Source: Streptosporangiales bacterium
GTDB taxonomy: Bacteria > Actinomycetota > Actinomycetes > Streptosporangiales > WHST01
DNA length: 59,263 nucleotides
Direction of reading: 5' to 3'
Assembly: GCA_009379825.1 (NCBI GenBank)
Contig: WHTA01000030.1
Coordinates: 1-59,263 of the forward strand
This document shows, piece by piece, positions 11,502 to 12,078 of this stretch (the first letter of the stretch is position 1; each line of letters begins with the position of its first letter). The notes below the pieces were generated by a model. The model was not told the DNA's origin. It saw only the letters and a list, made by a program, of their open reading frames with translations, and made no database searches. The position numbers and the translations under genes were made by a program.

Positions 11502-11642
11502 ATGGTCGATGACGACGAGGGCGGCGACCCCGCCTGCTGGGCCGAACGGGTGTGTCCGGACTGCGGACGGCTGGCCGACGACGACCCGCCGACGCGATGC
11601 GAGGGCTGCGGTGCCGAGGTCCTCGGCAGCGACGCGCAATGA
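11502..11642 (+). CDS. Short zinc-ribbon protein
   Basis: A 46-residue frame from ATG 11502 to TGA 11640-11642. It is acidic with two C-x2-C knuckles (VCPDCGRL and RCEGCGAEV) spaced like a rubredoxin-type zinc ribbon, plus an upstream Cys in DPACWAERV. No strong ribosome site is visible (AACTTGGGTGTC precedes the ATG). It fills the gap between HxlR and sugE with coding-like composition and ends 2 bases short of the sugE stop. The Cys spacing makes chance unlikely. Function unknown. Confidence 0.6.
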   Translation: MVDDDEGGDPACWAERVCPDCGRLADDDPPTRCEGCGAEVLGSDAQ

Positions 11643-11643
11643 G

Positions 11644-11958
11644 CTAGTGCAGCAGCTTCAGCCCGACGATGCCGCTGACGATCAGCCCGAGGCAGACGAT
11701 TTTTGCGGCGCTGACCGGCTCACCGAACCACGTCATGCCCGCGACCGCGGTGCCGACCGCGCCGATGCCCACCCACACCGCGTAACCGGTGCCGACCGGT
11801 ATGGCACGCAGGGCGACGGCCAGTCCGCCCATGCTCAACGCCAGCGCCACCACGAACACCAGGCTCGGGACCAACCGGCGGAAGCCGTTCGATGCGGACA
11901 ACGCGGTCGCCCATGCGGTTTCCAGCAGCCCGGAGACGACGAGAACGAGCCAGGCCAC
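11644..11958 (-). CDS. sugE: SMR-family guanidinium exporter (Gdx/SugE)
   Basis: A 104-residue four-helix small multidrug resistance protein. The GTG at 11958 follows AAGGAGG at 11964-11970. The sequence (SGLLETAWATALSASNGF with the essential membrane Glu, then VGTGYAVWVGIGAVGT, then GLIVSGIVGLKLLH) matches the SugE/Gdx branch, which exports guanidinium in exchange for protons, rather than the EmrE drug-exporting branch. A guanidine-III riboswitch immediately upstream supports this assignment. The gene is read from its own promoter at about 12050-12078. Confidence 0.9.
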   Translation of the reverse strand: MAWLVLVVSGLLETAWATALSASNGFRRLVPSLVFVVALALSMGGLAVALRAIPVGTGYAVWVGIGAVGTAVAGMTWFGEPVSAAKIVCLGLIVSGIVGLKLLH

Positions 11959-11977
11959 GACAACCTCCTTCGGGTCC

Positions 11978-12018
11978 GCGTCGTCTTGTCGTGACCGGGT
12001 ACGACGCTCCTCGTCCGG
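11978..12018 (-). promoter_or_regulatory. Guanidine-III riboswitch (ykkC-III) controlling sugE
   Basis: Read leftward, the 41 bases begin CCGGACGAGGAGCGTCG, continue TACCCGGTCACGACAAG and end ACGACGC. This reproduces the ykkC-III aptamer layout almost base for base. The helix GCGTCG at its positions 12-17 pairs with CGACGC at 36-41. Compared with the aptamer sequence I recall, C-G has become T-A within that helix, a compensatory change. The 3' end lies 7 bases before the sugE Shine-Dalgarno, so translational control by free guanidinium is likely. Confidence 0.88.
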
Positions 12019-12049
12019 AGGCCGGTGGACTACCACCTCGCCCAACGCC

Positions 12050-12078
12050 AGGATAGGGTGCCCGGTGCGGCCGGTCAG
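12050..12078 (-). promoter_or_regulatory. Probable promoter of the sugE riboswitch transcript
   Basis: Read leftward, CTGACC (12078-12073) and TATCCT (12055-12050) are separated by 17 bases. Transcription would then start near 12043, about 25 bases before the riboswitch. Each box matches the sigma-70-type consensus at four of six positions. Confidence 0.5.

Follow-up and report, generated by a model that had tools for sequence, protein, structure and literature searches.

What does the short leader ahead of an SMR transporter gene sense in this actinomycete, and how could it control the gene? The locus lies on the minus strand of a 59,263-nucleotide contig from a Streptosporangiales bacterium (WHTA01000030.1), which was analysed at its full length and is called the window below. 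An earlier note, written from the sequence alone, had proposed that a 41-base leader is a guanidine-III riboswitch and had suggested a covariance search as a check. In an Rfam scan of the whole window, RF01763 (Guanidine-III) gave a high score of 60.2 bits (E 5.6e-10) at 12042-11975 on the minus strand, aligned over the full model (1-67) and set against a gathering cut-off of 36 bits. This was the sole Rfam match within the window, and a single RF01763 copy is present across the 6.15-Mb assembly. The proposed 41 bases, 12018-11978, prove to be exactly the conserved core. The leader and gene comprise the following parts.

12050..12078, minus strand: predicted promoter-like element CTGACC-N17-TATCCT (loose score 9.21, p 0.005 against 1000 shuffles)
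12042..11975, minus strand: whole aptamer including the P1 hairpin, from the RF01763 match
12024..12037, minus strand: P1 hairpin GGUGG/CCACC, from the RF01763 alignment
11978..12018, minus strand: guanidine-III aptamer core of 41 bases (RF01763 at 60.2 bits; pair counts over 34 distinct aptamers)
12018-12015 with 11998-11995, minus strand: pseudoknot CCGG/CCGG (RF01763, pair counts)
12007-12001 with 11984-11978, minus strand: P2 helix GCGUCGU/ACGACGC (RF01763, pair counts)
11964..11970, minus strand: Shine-Dalgarno AAGGAGG, read directly from the sequence
11644..11958, minus strand: gdx, 104 aa with a GTG start at 11958, an SMR gene of predicted guanidinium/H+ antiporter type (PF00893, Gdx-Clo match, residues)

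All seven P2 pairs and all four pseudoknot pairs can form and the conserved core is intact, giving the P2 helix and H-type pseudoknot by which class membership is judged. The fourth P2 pair is U-A, where most of the 34 distinct aptamers have C-G; this is the compensatory C-G to T-A change in the long helix that the earlier note had recognised. The Shine-Dalgarno (11970-11964) lies 7 bases past P2, also as the note had it, and gdx stands downstream, in keeping with the leader of a guanidine-related gene. The element is a guanidine-III riboswitch, an ordinary and well-made example of an established class, and this copy would be expected to bind guanidinium. The class has been described in the literature together with its ligand, structure and ON direction (PMC5696562, PMC12186494), and such riboswitches are reported to switch genes on by acting close to the ribosome binding site (PMC5696562). 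For this leader we regard class membership and ON direction, taken jointly, as close to certain. Guanidine-II gave no match in the same genome, and the one Guanidine-I match, at 34.3 bits, was rejected: it falls below the cut-off of 63 and adjoins a tRNA gene.

The 104-residue product belongs to the SMR family (PF00893, 89 bits), and among solved structures it is closest to Gdx-Clo (6wk5; E 1.5e-27, 45% identity). It carries G10, E13, W16, S42, Y59 and W62, the residues expected of the Gdx subtype; W16 separates Gdx from Qac-type pumps, which have Gly or Ala there, and the roles of the binding-site residues have been described (PMC7695847). Among the closest homologues scanned within the phylum, 10 of 10 have RF01763 upstream, and across the order the model exceeds its cut-off in 266 of 347 genomes. 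The residues including W16, the Gdx-Clo identity and the riboswitch shared by relatives bear out the placement of this gene on the guanidinium-exporting branch. By far the best NCBIfam model is SugE NF008512, labelled 'quaternary ammonium compound efflux SMR transporter SugE'; the product is not filed under it because 115.6 bits is below the strict cut-off (126) for that one equivalog. As this is the closest NCBIfam label, the remark that such exporters are often annotated as multidrug pumps is fair, and has already been published for the family. The riboswitch gives this pump, which NCBI models would name as a quaternary-ammonium exporter, a firm function. Position 16, whose Trp is taken to mark the Gdx branch, is instead Met (GLFEVAMAYSLK) in many SMR proteins linked to the riboswitch in this order (e.g. 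L154-L164, L171-L180). A 46-residue open reading frame (11502..11642, plus strand) with two CxxC pairs of zinc-ribbon-like appearance converges on gdx from the other side, and a single base separates the two stop codons.

No intrinsic terminator was found when one was looked for as an expression platform at the leader. Folding of the RNA draws attention to the start codon, and to two further segments.

11986..11996, minus strand: aptamer strand GGUCACGACAA (minimum free energy and ensemble folds, chance tests), which would pair with the start region in the ligand-free RNA
11953..11963, minus strand: putative anti-aptamer strand UUGUCGUGGCC, which includes the GUG start codon (folds and chance tests)

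In the minimum free energy fold of the leader with 13 codons, P2 is absent and GGUCACGACAA instead pairs with UUGUCGUGGCC over 11 bp. In the ensemble of the free RNA, the start codon has an unpaired probability of about 0.01 or less and the Shine-Dalgarno is mostly open. Without ligand, then, pairing of 11996-11986 with 11963-11953 would hide the GUG while leaving the Shine-Dalgarno mostly accessible. Guanidinium binding would stabilise P2, the CCGG/CCGG pseudoknot and the triplex, and because these use the same aptamer strand as the lock, the start region would be released and the exporter made. The sequestered fold is favoured by 16 kcal/mol over a forced aptamer fold, with the energy of pseudoknot, triplex and ligand uncounted. 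Because of this difference equilibrium switching is doubtful, and co-transcriptional timing would therefore have to decide; the choice between ON and OFF is probably settled during transcription. The forced aptamer fold frees the UUGUC spacer only to about one half, the start codon in the aptamer-locked model is still mostly paired (to coding sequence), and the fold of the leader overall has a z of only -0.93. We lean modestly towards a start-codon lock as the candidate off state of this gdx leader. The lock is the only new detail here, and the founding guanidine-III paper (10.1021/acs.biochem.6b01271) may already draw start-codon pairing. Such pairing gives the class, whose working mechanism the structure paper called 'less well established' (PMC5696562), a definite off state that can be tested.

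The complementarity itself exceeds chance. The 11-bp run has p of about 0.003 against dinucleotide shuffles, in a test made after the helix between GGUCACGACAA and UUGUCGUGGCC had been noticed, and a run of at least 11 bp occurs in just 1 of 753 real control start regions from the same loci. Across 134 non-redundant guanidine-III leaders, the duplex energy between core strand and start region has a mean z of -0.65 (s.e. 0.11) relative to real control starts, and 18% of the leaders fall below p 0.05, a modest excess. More pronounced is the trinucleotide GUC directly before the start codon, found in 46 of 134 leaders (34%) and in 22 of 753 controls (3%; Fisher p 3e-25, an optimistic value as the leaders are mutually related). 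It also precedes the start in 6 of 20 leaders whose genes are not of SMR size, so the enrichment is not confined to gdx. When start regions were swapped among leaders the pairing was no weaker (mean z -0.09), which does not show covariation between linker and start; the signal is therefore complementarity to the invariant core that the leaders have in common, and not leader-by-leader covariation. Covariation of the aptamer linker base with the third base of codon 2 or with the start codon was considered and rejected: there were single suggestive cases (GUG starts, C linkers), and the swap test was flat. It is conceivable, if somewhat doubtful, that the class commonly controls translation through a duplex between the conserved aptamer strand GACAAGACG and the region of the start codon itself (a GUC-AUG/GUG element), and not by masking of the Shine-Dalgarno alone. 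Were that rule true, the window might be among its clearest cases, a suggestion we hold equally tentatively.

A rather unlikely reading is that the same riboswitch acts mainly on mRNA stability: the guanidine-bound pseudoknot would be a compact obstacle to RNase E as it scans from the 5' terminus, and the helix at the start codon would be incidental. Such protection of mRNA by guanidine-III is reported in a review (PMC12186494, which cites Richards and Belasco 2021), and the predicted transcript start lies near P1, as an RNase E block would require. That start is supported loosely. The earlier note had placed a promoter at the right distance, and the CTGACC-N17-TATCCT site (12078-12050) does beat 99.5% of shuffles under a loose score, but no site, this one included, passes a strict sigma-70 scan; transcription from it is tentatively predicted to begin just ahead of P1. 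The RNase E block leaves the GUC enrichment and the excess complementarity unexplained, and it can coexist with a start-codon lock. An aptamer that no longer switches, as a decayed or constitutive leader, is very improbable given the intact P2, pseudoknot and conserved core, the compensatory change in P2, and the intact Shine-Dalgarno and gene. That GC-rich DNA matched the model by accident is already refuted by the E value of 5.6e-10, the single match in the genome, and the correct strand and distance to the Gdx gene. The best explanation, to which we give a probability of roughly 0.9, is a guanidine-III riboswitch in the leader of a Gdx exporter, acting as a translational ON switch.

We also see guanidine-III leaders at other loci, some with different genes behind them. 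In a congener (same genus; L002:1412-1900, plus strand; G001:C13:52765-53441), the riboswitch precedes two tandem small membrane proteins of the CBU_0592 family (NF047864), not gdx, and this family is also downstream of guanidine-III in Luteimicrobium (L059) and Nocardioides (L070). No paper among those consulted links the CBU_0592 family to guanidine; it may be an unrecognised guanidine-related membrane protein. Other downstream genes (L047, L055, L058, L084, L088-L091 and others; L043, L086, L096, L132) include, with family names assigned by eye, one in mycobacteria for an agmatinase/guanidine-hydrolase-like protein and one in Asticcacaulis for an EamA-like transporter. Variant leaders upstream of gdx (L194, L197, L201, L204, L210, L211) have a compensatory CCUG/CAGG pseudoknot and carry GAAAAGACGG or GCAAAGACGG where GACAAGACGG would otherwise stand; the scores of L194 and L197 are only 37.9 and 42.3 bits.

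Among known systems, the closest comparison is the Thermobifida fusca guanidine-III riboswitch (RF01763, ykkC-III), for which there is a crystal structure. The two share P1, P2, the CCGG/CCGG pseudoknot and a core of ACGAG and GACAAGACG, as well as a downstream gdx gene and a short distance to the ribosome binding site. The window differs in having U-A for C-G in P2, C instead of G (T. fusca, L065) as the one-base linker between GGUCA and GACAAG, and a GUG start codon embedded in an 11-bp stretch complementary to the aptamer strand. For the protein, the comparison is with the guanidinium/H+ antiporter Gdx-Clo (PDB 6WK5), to which it is 45% identical over its length, with the same E13, W16, S42, Y59 and W62; the window's protein differs in coming from an actinomycete, with a transport role predicted from these similarities.
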